A stretch of DNA of 64,000 nt from Halococcoides cellulosivorans (lineage in GTDB: Archaea > Halobacteriota > Halobacteria > Halobacteriales > Haloarculaceae), in the NCBI RefSeq assembly GCF_003058365.1, contig NZ_CP028858.1, positions 682,001-746,000 on the forward strand. Reading direction: 5' to 3'. A model generated the notes under the pieces. The model saw only the letters and a program-made list of their open reading frames with translations, was not told the origin of the DNA and searched no databases. Shown here in pieces: positions 9,520 through 62,185 of the stretch. The position numbers were made by a program, and so were the translations under genes. Numbering within the stretch: position 1 is the stretch's first letter; each line of letters opens with the position of its first letter.

Positions 9520-9878
9520 AACAGATGGACCATCGCGACGGCGACGTTGCTCAGGACGATCACGCCACCGAAGGCGTTGATGCCCAGAAACCACCCGCGC
9601 CAGGCCGGGACCGTCTCGACGACCGGACGCATCGCGAGCAAGACGAGGCCGACGATCAGGACGACGGCCGCTTTCGTCGCGATCATCAACATCGGGTCGT
9701 GGATCAACAGCGCCCGGATGAGCGGGTTCGCTTCGAGTGCGAAGGTGCCCGACGCCGCCGACGCGACGAGTGTCGAGACGACGTCACCGAAGCCCCAGAT
9801 TATCACTATCGATACGACGAGTTCGCCGTAGTCGGGCCACTTCCACTCGATCGGGACTCGGTTGTTTGTTAAGCTCAT
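9516..9878 (-). CDS. Small membrane protein, DUF5658-like
   Basis: 120 residues with three to four predicted membrane helices (about 20-42, 60-82 and 98-118). The pattern FGDVVSTLV, EANPLIRALL and KAAVVLIVG resembles the DUF5658 family of small archaeal/bacterial membrane proteins, function unknown. A purine-rich GGTAGGAAGG lies immediately before the ATG and could act as a ribosome-binding site, unusual among the leaderless starts nearby. Converges with, and overlaps by 4 nt, the kinase gene. Confidence 0.65.
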   Translation of the reverse strand: MSLTNNRVPIEWKWPDYGELVVSIVIIWGFGDVVSTLVASAASGTFALEANPLIRALLIHDPMLMIATKAAVVLIVGLVLLAMRPVVETVPAWRGWFLGINAFGGVIVLSNVAVAMVHLF

Positions 9879-10027
9879 CCTTCCTACCCTCTCTGTTCTC
9901 TCGCATCCCTCATTAAGTCGCTGTTCCTGTTATTGATACTAATTTTCCACGGTGGGGGGCCTGAATCCTCCGAGCGGATCGGTGGCGAACCGCGGCGTTT
10001 TTGACACCGACCGACCTACGTGACCAC

Positions 10028-10216
10028 ATGACATGTGCTCGGTGCGGGGGCCCACTGGAGACGTTCGAACTCGGGGGACGACGGGCGGTCGTCTGTGCGG
10101 ACTGTGGGTACGTGGACACGGCCGTCGGGCACGAACCGGCGCGCAACGGCGACGAGGAGTCCTGGGATCGGGCCATCGAACGGTTCATCGAGAAGTTCGG
10201 AGACACTGTCGAGTGA
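10028..10216 (+). CDS. Small zinc-ribbon protein
   Basis: 62 residues. Two CxxC pairs (CARCGG and CADCGY), 21 residues apart, form a single zinc ribbon; the remainder is a charged helix. The ATG at 10028 is chosen because an in-frame TTG at 10001 lies well outside the zinc finger. It resembles the many small haloarchaeal zinc-finger proteins, most of unknown role. It precedes proC by 47 nt on the same strand. Confidence 0.7.
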   Translation: MTCARCGGPLETFELGGRRAVVCADCGYVDTAVGHEPARNGDEESWDRAIERFIEKFGDTVE

Positions 10217-10263
10217 CGAATCGAAACCACAGTCGGTAAACCGAACTGACGCGTACGACCGCT

Positions 10264-11034
10264 ATGAATTCGGTCAGTGTCATCGGCTGTGGAAACATGG
10301 GGAGTGCCCTGATCCGCGGCCTCGCGGACACCGAGTACACAGTGACGGCGTGTGACGTCGACGAGGCAGCACTGGAGGCCGTCGCCGGAGCTGCCGATCG
10401 AACGACCGCGGACATCGACGAGGCGGCGGCAGCCCCGCTGGTCGTGCTCGCGGTCAAACCCGACGTGATCACGACCGTCCTCGACGCGCTCGACCTCTCG
10501 GCCGACCAGACGCTGTGTTCGGTCGCCGCCGGCGTCGAGACCGACGTGCTCGCCGCGCGGACCGATGCGACGGTCTGTCGGTTGATGCCGAACCTCGCGG
10601 CGGAGTACGGTGAGATGGCCGCCGCGATGACGCCGCCGGGCGTCGACGACGCGCGCGCGGTGTTCGCGTCACTCGGCACGGTCGTCGAACTCGACGAGGA
10701 GTTGATGCATCTCGCGACGGCGATCAACGGCAGCGGGCCCGCGTTCGTCTTCTATCTCATCGACGCGATGCAGACGGCGGGCGTCGAGGGCGGGATGGAC
10801 CCCGACGACGCGCGGGCGCTGGCCACCCAGACGTTCCGTGGCGCGGCCGAGACGATCCAGCGGTCCGATCGCCGCATCGAGGCGTCGATCGACGCGGTCT
10901 GCTCGCCCAACGGCACGACCATCGAGGGAATGCACGTGCTCTGGGACGGGGACTGTGCCGACCAACTCCAGTCCGCGATCACCGCCGCCGAGCACCGCTC
11001 GAAAGAACTCGCCGCGGAGGTCGACCATGAGTGA
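10264..11034 (+). CDS. proC: Pyrroline-5-carboxylate reductase
   Basis: 256 residues, the normal length. The Rossmann NAD(P)H-binding motif [11 protein letters not shown] opens the protein, and the C-terminal P5CR dimerisation domain carries the conserved [15 protein letters not shown] and [12 protein letters not shown] motifs. It catalyses the last step of proline synthesis, reduction of 1-pyrroline-5-carboxylate, in the cytoplasm. Its last 8 nt overlap the start of proB, so the two are co-translated. Confidence 0.95.
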
Positions 11035-53589: not shown

Positions 53590-56500
53590 ATGCGAGAGGG
53601 GAACTCCAGTCCAGACGTCGACGTTTCGAGGCGTACAGTCCTCAAAGGTCTCGCGGCCACCGGTGCCGCGGGGATCGTCCCGGCGACGGCGAGCGCGCAG
53701 TCGTCTGCCCCCAGACAGGTCGAGAACCTGGACCGAGGCGTGGTCGCGGTCCCGTCGGGGGACGGCATCCTCGTCCGCTGGCGACTGTTCGGGACCGACC
53801 CCGACGACCTGGGATTTCACGTGTATCGCAACGGCGAGCAGGTCAACGACTCGCCGATTACGGGCAGTACGAACTTCCACGATGCGGGCGGTTCACCAGG
53901 CGATGCGTACATGATCGAGACGGAAGACGGCGAGCAGTCGAAGTCGGTCGAGGCCTGGGAAAACGACTATATCGACATTCCGCTGCACGAGCGGCCCGGG
54001 AGCCAGTACCACCCGAACGACGCCAGCGTCGGCGACCTGACGGGGAACGGCCGGTACGACATCGTCGTCCAGTGGTATCCCGACAACGCCCAGGACAACG
54101 CCTTCGAGGGCCACACCGATCCGACCGTCTTCGAGGCGGTCACGCTGGAAGGCGAGACGCTCTGGCAGATCGACCTGGGCCCCAACATCCGGTCGGGGGC
54201 CCACTACGCGCAGTGGCTCGTCTACGACTTCGACGGCGACGGCATCTCGGAGTTCGTCGTCCGAACCGCCGACGGGACGGTCGACGGCGAAGGGTCGGTT
54301 ATCGGTGATCCGAACGCCGACTGGATGAACGGCGAGGGCCGGAGCCTCGAAGGGCCCGAGTACCTGACCGTCTTCGACGGGACGACGGGCGCGGAGATCA
54401 CGACCACGGACTTCGAGCCAGCCAGAGGCGACATTTGCTCGTGGGGTGACTGCTACGGCAACCGCGGCGAGCGGTTCCTCGCGGGCGTCGCCTACCTCGA
54501 CGGCGAACACCCGAGCATCGTCGAGGCCCGCGGGTATTACGAACGGAGCGCGCTCGCGGCCTTCGACTTCGACGGCGAGAACCTGACCCAGCGCTGGCAC
54601 TTCGACAGCGCCGACGGGTGGGGGGATTACGCCAGTCAGGGCAATCACCAGTTGAGCGTCGCCGACTGCGACGGCGACGGCTACGACGAAATCGTCTACG
54701 GGCAGTGTGTGATCGACCACGACGGGACCGGCCTGCACACGACTGGCTGGGGCCACGGCGACGCATTGCACGTGGGCGACTTCGCTCCCGATCGTGAGGG
54801 TCTGGAGATCTTCGGGCCCGGCGAAACCGGGAACATGGGCGAGGCGATGCGCGACGCAGAGACCGGCGAGCCACTCTGGTTCAGCGGCGAGAGCGGCGAC
54901 GTCGGGCGAGGCGTCGCCGGCAACATCGATCCCTCGAACTACGGCGCCGAGGCCTGGTCCTCGGCCGACAACGGCCTTCGCGACGCCGAAACGGGCGATC
55001 CCGTCGGCAGTACACCCGGCCCGAAAAACCACCTCGTGTGGTGGAAAGGCGACCTGAAGCGGGAACTGCTCGACGGGACCTGGATCGGCGAGTGGGATCC
55101 GAACGACGACACGACACATACGGTCGAAGACTTCGGCGGCGTCGGTTCGAACAACGGGTCGAAGGCGAACCCGAGCCTCACTGCCGACATCCTCGGTGAC
55201 TGGCGCGAGGAGGTGCTGCTCCGCCGCGACGACAACGAGGCACTGCGCCTGTTCGCGACGCCGTACGAGACCGACCACCGGATCTACACGCTGATGCACG
55301 ACCCGATGTACCGATGTGCGATCGCCTGGCAGAACGTCGCGTACAACCAGCCGCCACATCCGAGCTTCTACATCGGCAACGGCATGGACGAACCGCCGGC
55401 GCAGAACATCCAGCCGATCGGTAGTGACCCCACGGATCGCATCTTCGGCCTGCCCAGTGTGCCGAACGTCCCCGACGACACGTATCAGCTGGTCAATGTC
55501 AACTCGGGACACGTCCTCTCGGTCGCCAGTGGGAGTGAATCCGACGGCGCGGACGTGGTCCAGGCGAGCGATTCGGACGCGTCGGCTCAGCAGTGGGACC
55601 TGGCCTACGCCGGCAACGGCCAGTACGACCTCCTCGCAGCCCACTCTGGGAAGGCACTGGACGTCTCCGGGTCGTCGGAAGAGGACGGCGCAAACGTCCA
55701 GCAGTATGCGCCCAGCGCCAACGCGAACCAGCGGTGGTATCTCGACCCACGAGGCGACGGCACCTACCGGATCGTCGCTGCCCACTCCGAGAAGGTTCTC
55801 GAAATCAGCGAGCAGTCGACGGCCGACGGCGCGACCGCCCAGCAGTGGACGTGGAACGGGGGCGACCACCAGCGCTGGGAACTCGTGCCCACCCAATCGT
55901 GGGCTGGCGCGGGCCCGATCACCATCGACGGCGGGGGCGCGGACATTTGGGGCACTGCAGACGCCGGCCACATGTACGCGGGCCAGGTGACTGGCGACTT
56001 CGACGTGGTAGTGCGGGTCGCGAACGTCGAGGACACCGACGCGTTCGCCAAGGCTGGCCTCATGGTTCGCGCCGGGATGGACGCCGGGGCGGCGAACGCG
56101 ATGATCCGGCGGACACCGTCACAGACGTCCTTGCAGTGGCGGCCCGAAGCGGGCGCGGAGTCGGTCAGTCTCACCTCGGGGGCGACCGCCGAGAGCGAGG
56201 TCACCGGTGGGACGACCGATCATACCGTCCAACGCCTGATGCGCTCGGGCGACGAACTGCGAGCGTACACCTCGGCCGACGGCGAGGAGTGGACACTCCT
56301 GGCGACGGTGTCGATGTCGCTACCGGAGGAGGTGATGGTCGGACTGGCGGTGACGAGTCACTCCGCCGGGACGCTCGCCACGGCCGAATTCGAGAAATTC
56401 GCTGGCGTCGATCCGACCCTCAACCAAGACATCGGGACGGTCGAGGCCGCCGGGAGTGTGACCGACGACAGCACCGATCTCGACCCGGTCGACGGTCGCG

Positions 56501-56694
56501 TCCCTCGTGATCTCGACGGCGACGGGATTCACGAGGACATCAACGGGAACGGAAAACTGGACTTCCCGGACGTGAACGCGTTCTTCCAGCACTCCGATCG
56601 GCCAGTCCTCGACGATCACACTGCAGCCTACGACGTCACTGGGGACGGCGTTGTCGACATGCAGGACGTGCTCGCGCTGTTCGAACTGATCTGA
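53590..56694 (+). CDS. Secreted multidomain rhamnogalacturonan lyase (PL11) with lectin-like and dockerin-like modules
   Basis: 1034 residues. A twin-arginine signal (SRRTVLKGLAATGAAG, residues 13-28) targets it for Tat export. Residues about 42-625 match polysaccharide lyase family 11, including SVGDLTGNGRYDIVVQWYP, YDFDGDGISEFVVRTADGT and ADILGDWREEVLLRRDD. A ricin-type beta-trefoil domain with QxW repeats spans about 632-770, a DUF1349/LamG-like domain about 772-940, and the end (about 975-1034) holds two calcium-binding dockerin-like repeats (DLDGDGIHEDINGNGKLD, YDVTGDGVVDMQDVLALF). It would cleave the rhamnose-galacturonate backbone of pectin outside the cell. No cohesin gene is in the window. 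Confidence 0.92.
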   Translation: MREGNSSPDVDVSRRTVLKGLAATGAAGIVPATASAQSSAPRQVENLDRGVVAVPSGDGILVRWRLFGTDPDDLGFHVYRNGEQVNDSPITGSTNFHDAGGSPGDAYMIETEDGEQSKSVEAWENDYIDIPLHERPGSQYHPNDASVGDLTGNGRYDIVVQWYPDNAQDNAFEGHTDPTVFEAVTLEGETLWQIDLGPNIRSGAHYAQWLVYDFDGDGISEFVVRTADGTVDGEGSVIGDPNADWMNGEGRSLEGPEYLTVFDGTTGAEITTTDFEPARGDICSWGDCYGNRGERFLAGVAYLDGEHPSIVEARGYYERSALAAFDFDGENLTQRWHFDSADGWGDYASQGNHQLSVADCDGDGYDEIVYGQCVIDHDGTGLHTTGWGHGDALHVGDFAPDREGLEIFGPGETGNMGEAMRDAETGEPLWFSGESGDVGRGVAGNIDPSNYGAEAWSSADNGLRDAETGDPVGSTPGPKNHLVWWKGDLKRELLDGTWIGEWDPNDDTTHTVEDFGGVGSNNGSKANPSLTADILGDWREEVLLRRDDNEALRLFATPYETDHRIYTLMHDPMYRCAIAWQNVAYNQPPHPSFYIGNGMDEPPAQNIQPIGSDPTDRIFGLPSVPNVPDDTYQLVNVNSGHVLSVASGSESDGADVVQASDSDASAQQWDLAYAGNGQYDLLAAHSGKALDVSGSSEEDGANVQQYAPSANANQRWYLDPRGDGTYRIVAAHSEKVLEISEQSTADGATAQQWTWNGGDHQRWELVPTQSWAGAGPITIDGGGADIWGTADAGHMYAGQVTGDFDVVVRVANVEDTDAFAKAGLMVRAGMDAGAANAMIRRTPSQTSLQWRPEAGAESVSLTSGATAESEVTGGTTDHTVQRLMRSGDELRAYTSADGEEWTLLATVSMSLPEEVMVGLAVTSHSAGTLATAEFEKFAGVDPTLNQDIGTVEAAGSVTDDSTDLDPVDGRVPRDLDGDGIHEDINGNGKLDFPDVNAFFQHSDRPVLDDHTAAYDVTGDGVVDMQDVLALFELI

Positions 56695-59567: not shown

Positions 59568-61748
59568 TTAGAAGTAATCGATGCCGGCGGGCAGTTCGAG
59601 CTTCATGCCTTTGCGCTCGCGGATCTGTGTGATGATGTCGGGCTGGAGGTTGTCGGCCAGCACGCGGAAGCCCGCGTTCTCGGTGTTCCAGGAGGCGCGG
59701 CCTTCGGTCGCCGACCGAATGTCGCTCGAAAATCCGATCATCTCCTCGACGGGCGCGATGCCCTCGATCACCATGACGTCGCCTTCCTGGTACATGTCGT
59801 CGACCCGGCCACGTCGGCCCTGAATCTCGCCCGATGCCGCGCCCATGTGTTCGCTGGGCACGTCGATCCGGACGTCCTGAATCGGCTCCAGGAGGCGGAT
59901 CTCGGCGTCGATCAGCGCGTTGTGGACGGCCTGGCGGACGGCGGGGACGACCTGGGCGGGACCGCGGTGGATGGCGTCCTCGTGCAGGCGAGCGTCGTGC
60001 AATCGGAGCAGCGACCCCTGGACCGGTTCGGCGGCCAGCGGCCCGTCGTCGAGGGCCTCTTCGAGCCCCTCGATGACGAGTTCCATCGTCTCGTTGAGGT
60101 GCTGAATCCCCTTCGTGTCGTCGATCAGGATGTTCGTCCGGTGGATCGTCTCGACCTCCTGGGAGGCCTCCTTCTCGAGGCCGGCGTCCTGGAGGGCTTC
60201 ACGCCGTTCGAGTTCGGGCATGTCCATCGACGCCTCGCCCATCTTGATCGTCTCGACGACGTCCTCGGGCAGCGGCTCGACGGTGATGTAAAACCGGTTG
60301 TGTCGGTTCGGAGAGATGCCCTCGACCTCTCGCGAGGCGGTCTGGGGGGCCTCGCGGAAGACGACGATCGGTTCACCGGTCGTGATCGGAATGCCCTGGT
60401 TGCGCTCGATGCGCTGGCCGATCACCTCGAGGTGGAGTTCGCCCTGTCCGGAGATGAGGTGCTCGCCGGTGTCCTCGTTGATCTCCACGTGGATCGTCGG
60501 GTCTTCTTTCGAGACCTGCTGGAGCGTCTCGATCAGCTTCGGCAGGTCGTCCATGCGCTGGGCTTCGACACTTTTCGTGATGACGGGCTCCGAGAGGTGC
60601 TCGATCGACTCGAAGGGCGTCATCTCGACGCTACTGACCGTCGAGCCCGCGATGGCGTCTTTCAGCCCCGTGACGGCGGCGATGTTCCCCGCGGGCACGC
60701 GACTCACTTCCTCGCGTTCACCACCCATGAACAGCCCGACCGACTGGAGGCGGTTCGTCCCGGCCGTCCCCGAGACGTAGAGGTCCTGGCCCTCTTCGAG
60801 CGTGCCAGAGAAGACACGACCCGTCGCAATCTCGCCGGCGTGGGGGTCCATCGAGATGTCCGTCACCATGAAGACGACCTCGCCGTCCTCGTCGACGAAG
60901 CGCATGCTCTCCGCGAGTTCCGAGTCCGCGTCGCCACGCCAGACCGTCGGAATCCGACGGGGCTGGGCGTCGACGGGGTTCGGGAAGTGCTCACAGACCA
61001 TGTCGAGGACGACGTCCGAGAGTGGCGTCTGCTCGTGGAGTTCCTGGCGCTTGTCCGCCCGCTCCAGATCGATGATGTCACCGAAGTCCATCCCCGTGGC
61101 GACCATCGACGGCTTCGAGACGCCCCACTTGTAGAGTGCGGAGCCAAAAGCGACCGTCCCCTCGTCGACCGAGACCGTCCAGTCGCGATCCCAGTCCTCG
61201 GTCATCCCGCGGATGAGTTCGTTCACGTCGTGGATGACTGCGAGCAGGCGTTCCTGCATCTCCTCGGGGCCCTCCTGCAGTTCCGAGATCAGCCGGTCGA
61301 CCTTGTTGATAAAGAGGGTGGGCTTGACGCCTTCTCGCAGCGCCTGCCGAAGCACGGTCTCGGTCTGGGGCATCGCGCCCTCGACGGCGTCGACGACCAC
61401 CATCGCGCCGTCGACCGCGCGCATCGCGCGTGTCACGTCGCCACCGAAGTCGACGTGGCCCGGCGTGTCGATCAGGTTGATGAGGTGGTTTTTCTCATCG
61501 TACTCGTGGGTCATCGAGACGTTTGCCGCGTCGATGGTGATCCCACGCTCCTGTTCGTCCTCTTCGGTGTCCATCGCGAGCTGTTCGCCCGCGGTGTCCT
61601 CGGAGATCATCCCTGCCCCCGCGAGCAGGTTGTCCGTCAGCGTCGTCTTCCCGTGGTCGACGTGGGCGGCGATCGCGATGTTGCGAATCTGTTCGGGCTG
61701 GTCCATCAGCCCCTCACATTCCTCGACGATCTGCGAGCGTCGGCTCAT
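59568..61748 (-). CDS. fusA: Translation elongation factor 2 (aEF-2)
   Basis: 726 residues, the archaeal EF-2 length. G-domain motifs [28 protein letters not shown] and NKVDRL are present, and domain IV carries the diphthamide loop ([16 protein letters not shown]). It drives GTP-dependent translocation on the ribosome. Upstream on this strand lies a 57-bp repeat array. Downstream is a T-tract and a hairpin cassette, the same 3' context as tRNA-Val. Confidence 0.98.
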
Positions 61749-61787: not shown

Positions 61788-61829
61788 GTTTCCGTGTGAA
61801 GCGTGTCAAAGACACGCGAACACGGAAAC
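61788..61829. promoter_or_regulatory. Long hairpin at the EF-2 edge of the array
   Basis: Outer 10-bp arms (GTTTCCGTGT / ACACGGAAAC) and inner 7-bp arms (GCGTGTC / GACACGC) surround an AAA loop, with a 3/2-nt internal bulge. The outer left arm is an inverted partial copy of the repeat unit. It lies 40-80 nt before the EF-2 start. Confidence 0.6.
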
Positions 61830-62185
61830 GAGCGGTGGGGTGGTGGATGCGTTGGAAGCGTGTCAAAGACACGCGAACACGGAAACGAGCGGTGGGGTGG
61901 TGGATGCGTTGGAAGCGTGTCAAAGACACGCGAACACGGAAACGAGCGGTGGGGTGGTGGATGCGTTGGAAGCGTGTCAAAGACACGCGAACACGGAAAC
62001 GAGCGGTGGGGTGGTCGATTCGTTGGAAGCGTGTCAAAGACATGCGAACACGGAAACGAGCGGTGGGGTGGTGGATGCGTTGGATGCGTGTCAAAGACAC
62101 GCGAACACGGAACCGAGCGGTGGGGTGGTGGATGCGTTGGATGCGTGTCAAAGACACGCGAACACGGAACCGAGCGGTGGGGTGG
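61799..62185. repeat. 57-bp tandem repeat array (six full units plus one partial)
   Basis: Units start at 61799, 61856, 61913, 61970, 62027, 62084 and 62141 (last about 45 bp). Each contains GCGTGTC-AAA-GACACGC, a 7-bp hairpin, and a G/T-rich second half. Units differ by only a few bases: unit 5 has GACATGC, which keeps a G-U pair in RNA. Because 57 is a multiple of 3, long frames run through it on both strands, but none has a supported start. There are no unique spacers, so it is not CRISPR. Confidence 0.93.

Follow-up and report, generated by a model that had tools for sequence, protein, structure and literature searches.

Cellulosomes are a textbook bacterial machine. In those of the Clostridium thermocellum type, many secreted hydrolases each carry one C-terminal dockerin, a scaffoldin combines repeated cohesins with a divergent dockerin of its own, and an anchor at the cell surface carries a cohesin. 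Cohesin and dockerin modules also occur in a non-cellulosomal setting in the archaeon Archaeoglobus fulgidus, an organism that is not known to have a set of polysaccharide-degrading enzymes or a scaffoldin with several cohesins. A 2010 genome survey, in the portion of its text used here, reported cellulosome components to be absent from all archaeal genomes (PMC2838879). The sections drawn on from a 2022 paper state that archaea with cohesin or dockerin modules lacked large scaffoldins, and describe proteins of anaerobic methanotrophic archaea (ANME) with one dockerin and up to five cohesins (PMC9012536). Haloarchaeal isolates attach firmly to cellulose, according to the extract cited (PMC4569967), and in the corresponding portion of a paper on haloarchaeal cellulose use the words ‘dockerin’ and ‘cohesin’ do not occur (PMC10267330). 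A description of a haloarchaeal scaffold was not found in those portions of the open PubMed Central literature that were covered, with subscription journals and preprints outside this scope. Here we describe a 64,000-nucleotide stretch of the genome of the haloarchaeon Halococcoides cellulosivorans (contig NZ_CP028858.1, positions 682,001 to 746,000; the window), in which the gene at 53590-56694 encodes a PL11 enzyme ending in a dockerin that we name DocH. With a probability of roughly 0.8, this DocH is a plug for calcium-dependent docking onto CohL, a family of divergent cohesin-fold domains, in a cell-bound cellulosome-like complex. We conclude that a dockerin-cohesin system, complete with scaffoldins and predicted membrane anchors, is widespread in haloarchaea and reaches cellulosome scale in this genome. 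Plugs, sockets, scaffoldins and predicted anchors occur side by side in whole haloarchaeal genomes, in contrast to the earlier view of archaea, which suggests that archaea possess a cellulosome of their own comparable to the bacterial one.

The modular structure of the window enzyme is given in Table 1. A first-pass annotation made from the letters alone had proposed a PL11 catalytic domain, a beta-trefoil, a DUF1349 domain, a twin-arginine translocation (Tat) export signal and two dockerin-type calcium repeats, and each of these was recovered by the Pfam scans, the structure comparison or the alignments. Its description of the protein as a pectin lyase held insofar as the enzyme belongs to PL11, but the label was too broad: because PL11 enzymes provide the nearest matches among solved structures (4cag, E 1.2e-200; YesX; YesW), its sequence marks it more exactly as a rhamnogalacturonan lyase. 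The lectin region comprised RicinB_lectin_2 in two stretches and a Ricin_B_lectin match at residues 631-763, and Dockerin_1 matched residues 982-1030, scoring 21.3 bits in the whole-protein scan and 27.7 bits in the genome scan against a cut-off of 22.9. The window module reached 111.6 bits against profile A1, an alignment of 36 of the genome’s own modules of which it is itself one row, and shared a mean identity of 58% with 66 other modules of the genome; together these values place the dockerin assignment far beyond chance. In the additional D974-G979 motif, the first and third Asp are conserved in alignment A1.

Across the genome, searched as one contig of 2,723,120 bases, the Pfam dockerin model gave 70 matches, two of which (140261 and 2345127) were set aside as fragments. 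Profile A1 gave 71, namely 70 modules at 83-119 bits, to which the name DocH is applied throughout, and one classical dockerin at 28 bits. DocH terminates the protein in 67 of the 70 cases and comes after the N-terminus in the other three. The consensus of the C-terminal modules, P.D.DGDGLYED..G.G...FPDVN.LFQ.TD...VQ.....YDF.GDG.VD.QDVLALFE.V, shows conservation extending well past the calcium ligands (FPDVN, LFQ, QDVLALFE). When all 70 proteins were scanned with Pfam, 43 proved to contain a catalytic domain of a carbohydrate-active enzyme: GH5 in 22, GH10 in five, GH9 in three, GH43 and SASA esterase in two each, and GH3, GH11, GH16, GH18, GH26, Glyco_hydro_cc, PL11, PL14 and a GH39-like domain (a match below its Pfam cut-off) in one each. 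The remaining carriers were beta-helix, PQQ propeller, fn3, carbohydrate-binding module (CBM) or unrecognised proteins. Conversely, 20 of the 22 GH5 frames found genome-wide bear DocH when assigned by position, in a frame list that misses two GH5-DocH frames found by hmmscan. By a crude N-terminal pattern, 53 of the 70 proteins were Tat-like and 11 Sec-like, 64 in total being export-like.

The partner proposed for DocH is CohL, a domain of about 135 amino acids that precedes DocH in numerous proteins of haloarchaea; in genomes with few DocH it often sits on a PhoX-type protein (PF05787 in Haloarcula sebkhae). The CohL of L038:6724-8370 (G and L numbers denote genomes and loci) scored 14.2 bits with the Pfam Cohesin model PF00963, below the cut-off of 24.1, and the scanned proteins with eight, five and three CohL gave no match to this model. 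An AlphaFold2 model of the H. sebkhae CohL-DocH tandem (alignment A5, 50 rows) had a mean predicted local distance difference test score (pLDDT) of 92.8. All 50 Foldseek matches listed for its CohL were cohesins, the best being 2xdh of A. fulgidus (E 4.9e-11), and cohesins made up 49 of the 50 best VIA-align rows, with Z up to 16.6. CohL is therefore predicted to form a cohesin beta-sandwich outside the PF00963 model. The fold was recognised by structure prediction only, since the CohL profile (A2, built from domains adjoining DocH) matched no cohesin among PDB sequences, its best match being a beta-clamp at E 0.45. Probably the haloarchaeal system went unseen because CohL domains lie beyond the Pfam cohesin model.

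With the CohL profile, 15 CohL were detected in nine proteins of the genome at E<=1.7e-10 (Table 1). The first-pass annotation had noted that no cohesin is here, which is correct for the window and not for the genome, where two Pfam cohesins accompany the 15 CohL, several of them repeated or membrane-anchored. An archaeal scaffold, which it had raised as an open question alongside another docking role, is supported, at the level of sequence, by these domains together with the 70 DocH, and the search it proposed for other dockerin-bearing hydrolases yielded the 43 catalytic carriers described above, the window enzyme among them. Three CohL proteins (L039:5184-7922, L147:2663-7678 and L148:2741-3736) end in a membrane helix by sequence. 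The DocH of the protein we call ScaA is the most divergent of the 67 C-terminal modules (mean identity 0.43, compared with 0.62 overall), and its architecture agrees with that expected of a scaffoldin whose own docking specificity is distinct. In L039, the 719-codon frame, the 913-codon frame, a GH3-DocH gene and a GH9-DocH gene follow one another on one strand with short gaps, an arrangement suggestive of an operon. A domain of 133-144 amino acids with 38-45% identity is common to the scaffoldins of this genome (L045:1349-1747, in ScaA), of G264 and of G344 (L180:12613-13044 and L267:8962-9378). It had no relative among PDB sequences and the three proteins gave no Pfam CBM match; we regard it as a candidate new carbohydrate-binding module.

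Co-occurrence was assessed in 391 Halobacteria genomes, a survey whose class lists are an even sample of a larger group and whose related genomes do not count as independent. CohL was present in 146 genomes and DocH in 178; both were found in 142, DocH only in 36, CohL only in four and neither in 209 (odds ratio 206). By genus the respective numbers were 46, 7, 0 and 33. CohL was present in all 12 genomes having at least 8 DocH. Apart from this genome, 16 have at least 7 DocH; a recount of 12 of these and of G298 found CohL in all 13; two of the four omitted (G078 and G261) were without it. Multi-CohL proteins recur in DocH-rich genomes. In G344 (29 DocH), a gene combining GH5 with eight CohL and the ScaA-type domain at its end precedes a 278-codon CohL frame whose C-terminal part is hydrophobic, both lying within a run of DocH genes. 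In G103 (47 DocH), a frame with GH5 and at least five CohL, interrupted by the contig end, is accompanied by a 211-codon CohL frame with a transmembrane segment and a dense DocH cluster. G264 (17 DocH) encodes a protein with the ScaA-type domain, five CohL and DocH, followed by a 241-codon CohL frame with a transmembrane segment, and in G321, G061 and G208 proteins with three CohL adjoin DocH genes. Among 80 named loci, CohL and DocH share one frame in 49. The named loci extend to ANME-2, Methanophagales, Methanomicrobiales and Thermoproteaceae; CohL-DocH tandems were seen in ANME-2, Methanophagales, Methanoregulaceae, Methanogenium and Thermoproteaceae (L220-L227, L231). A separate observation is that in many haloarchaea (L185-L239, e.g., L187:1934-4618) a gene for a PhoX alkaline phosphatase with CohL and DocH adjoins one encoding a signal peptide, CohL and a membrane helix, possibly an ancestral surface-docking cassette.

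The two module families with their folds and repeats, as well as the export signals, membrane anchors and neighbourhoods described above, were read from sequence or prediction, and from the folds, architectures and gene neighbourhoods we infer that CohL binds DocH, that this requires calcium, which cohesin would pair with which dockerin, and that complexes form. DocH enzymes would be folded and then exported, largely by Tat, and would plug via DocH into the CohL of scaffoldins, while membrane-anchored CohL proteins would hold the scaffoldins, or enzymes directly, at the cell surface, giving a cell-bound cellulosome-like complex. Like the bacterial machine, the system has numerous predicted secreted hydrolases that each bear a single dockerin at the C-terminus, a scaffoldin with repeated cohesins and its own divergent dockerin, and a cohesin-bearing putative surface anchor (predicted from sequence), and both module folds match in the predicted models. 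Unlike bacterial cellulosomes, the system is archaeal, extremely halophilic and, as predicted from sequence, mostly Tat-exported; its cohesins are too divergent for the Pfam model, C-terminal membrane helices take the place of SLH modules or sortase in anchoring, and the scaffoldins have three CohL in this genome and bear their own GH5 in G103 and G344. With A. fulgidus it shares an archaeal host and the closest structural match of CohL. The ANME proteins of the 2022 paper are similar in being multi-cohesin, whereas their dockerins are borne by transporter-binding and S-layer-domain proteins in place of the cellulase and hemicellulase set seen here (PMC9012536). The named loci examined here likewise include CohL-DocH tandems in ANME-2 and Methanophagales. 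We would give even odds to a more specific scheme, a two-tier membrane-anchored haloarchaeal cellulosome in which cellulose users elaborated an old surface-docking cassette of PhoX-CohL-DocH and a CohL membrane anchor, giving rise to dozens of enzymes with plugs, to scaffoldins with several CohL and to a second dockerin specificity, divergent from the first, linking scaffoldin to anchors.

A simpler arrangement, in which DocH enzymes are tethered singly to membrane-anchored CohL proteins with no multi-enzyme scaffold, would agree with the wide distribution of the PhoX-CohL-DocH cassette beside a CohL anchor (a separate CohL frame ends in a membrane helix in 29 of the 49 named loci with both domains in one frame) and with the three CohL anchors of this genome. 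We consider it unlikely given the multi-CohL proteins, with three CohL each in ScaA and the 719-codon protein here and five and eight elsewhere, which have Tat signals and lie beside DocH genes.

Less probable still is that DocH serves without any protein docking, as a C-terminal tag that binds substrate or a surface or is a generic one stabilised by calcium. The domain is read as substrate-binding in two papers, on haloarchaeal GH26 and glycosaminoglycan lyases (PMC10963439, PMC13260240), and in the portions of the two papers cited here cohesins go unmentioned. Profile A1 matched calcium-binding EF-hand proteins among PDB sequences, which could point the same way; this sequence match was outweighed by the fold comparison. 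An AlphaFold2 model of the 69-residue window DocH (alignment A6, 48 rows from named archaeal loci; pLDDT 87.9; predicted template modelling score, pTM, 0.75) had dockerins as its ten best Foldseek rows (TMq 0.49-0.59), with EF-hand proteins at about 0.21-0.28. In VIA-align, all 24 rows listed were dockerins, the best with Z 6.7 over 52 residues and a root-mean-square deviation of 1.9. The model thus predicts two calcium-loop-helix repeats in a dockerin arrangement. Moreover, residues other than the calcium ligands are strongly conserved across unrelated enzymes, and DocH presence tracks CohL. The first-pass annotation had named, as grounds for refuting its docking reading, the lack of any cohesin together with repeats that are generic calcium-binding linkers; the genome holds cohesins, and the conservation of the repeats takes in FPDVN, LFQ and QDVLALFE.

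Two neighbouring genes of this genome (L037:8220-9728 and 9737-10363; G000 about 2196219-2198362) also encode cohesins that match PF00963 strongly, one in a beta-helix-cohesin-classical dockerin protein and the other in a cohesin protein ending in a membrane helix. In the survey, PF00963 was present in 153 genomes, with DocH in 86, and 92 had DocH only (odds ratio 2.0; by genus 39/14/9/24, p 4e-5). Docking of DocH onto these classical cohesins, which the strong adjacent pair and this weak association would favour, is very improbable, as PF00963 no longer predicts DocH once CohL status is considered (among genomes lacking CohL the odds ratio is 0.95, among those possessing it 3.4 with p 0.35, neither being significant), the pair has its own classical dockerin (28 bits with the DocH profile, compared with 83-119), and G208 (8 DocH) and G354 (13 DocH) have CohL and no PF00963 match. 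In one haloarchaeal genus (g36), 11-12 Pfam cohesins lie in one stretch (L183, G042:C1:469000-488900; G207:C1:81770-110285) that also includes classical dockerins at protein ends and a multi-cohesin frame of 1260 codons whose C-terminus resembles a membrane anchor, possibly a second, classical scaffold system.

Several observations weigh against docking of DocH enzymes onto CohL scaffoldins. Two of the 22 GH5 frames are without DocH, six of the 70 DocH proteins have no export signal recognised by the crude pattern (probably owing to wrong starts), and most DocH genes of the genome are not clustered with scaffoldins, which here carry only three CohL each. Some CohL-like domains are weak (the second copy in L057, E 0.04; L058, E 0.25). 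The Foldseek E-values of the DocH model are poor (best 0.24), which reflects its small size, its VIA-align Z stays below 8, and the pTM of the CohL-DocH tandem model is 0.73. At E<=1e-3, 36 of the 178 DocH genomes lack CohL, including G078 (7 DocH), G261 (7) and G339 (6), and many genomes hold both CohL and DocH on one PhoX protein. Part of the co-occurrence is moreover built in, because the CohL profile came from domains beside DocH; the multi-CohL proteins depend less on this. If correct, the docking of DocH onto CohL would explain the digestion of solid cellulose by extreme halophiles, would mean that the dockerin module has been wrongly interpreted as substrate-binding, and would offer salt-proof cohesin-dockerin pairs for enzyme assembly.

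Table 1. Modules of the window enzyme (window positions) and CohL proteins of the H. cellulosivorans genome (locus or genome positions)
Feature	Position	Strand	Basis
Tat-exported PL11 rhamnogalacturonan lyase with C-terminal dockerin, 1034 amino acids	53590..56694	+	Open reading frame (ORF), Pfam, comparison with solved structures
Tat signal, residues 11-29	53620..53676	+	Pfam TAT_signal, 23.2 bits
RGI_lyase beta-sheet domain, residues 42-119	53713..53946	+	Pfam, E 5.5e-26
PL11 catalytic domain RGL11_C, residues 139-604	54004..55401	+	Pfam, E 1.2e-206; 4cag, YesX, YesW
Ricin-type beta-trefoil lectin, residues 627-763	55468..55878	+	Pfam PF14200 and PF00652
DUF1349, residues 784-937	55939..56400	+	Pfam, E 1e-8
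DocH, haloarchaeal C-terminal dockerin	56497..56691	+	111.6 bits with profile A1; model and fold comparison
Extra DxDxDG motif preceding loop 1, D974-G979	56509..56526	+	Sequence; alignment A1
Calcium loop 1, DINGNGKLDFPD, D983-D994	56536..56571	+	Sequence; alignment A1
Calcium loop 2, DVTGDGVVDMQD, D1015-D1026	56632..56667	+	Sequence; alignment A1
ScaA, 732 amino acids: Tat signal, 133-amino-acid CBM-like domain, three CohL, DocH	G000 381689-383884; L045:1190-3385		
719-codon frame: Tat signal, three CohL	L039		
913-codon frame adjoining the 719-codon frame: one CohL, C-terminal membrane helix	L039:5184-7922		
Two CohL, repeats, C-terminal membrane helix	L147:2663-7678		
Signal peptide, CohL, threonine-rich linker, C-terminal membrane helix	L148:2741-3736		
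CohL and DocH on one chain	L038:6724-8370		
Large GLUG-repeat proteins ending in CohL and DocH	L073:920-4924 and L076:1800-5579		
CohL and DocH on one chain	L057		

Elsewhere in the window, a 57-bp tandem repeat of 6.8 copies with 97% matches lies at 61798-62185, beside an ORF on the minus strand (59568-61748) that we take to be elongation factor 2.

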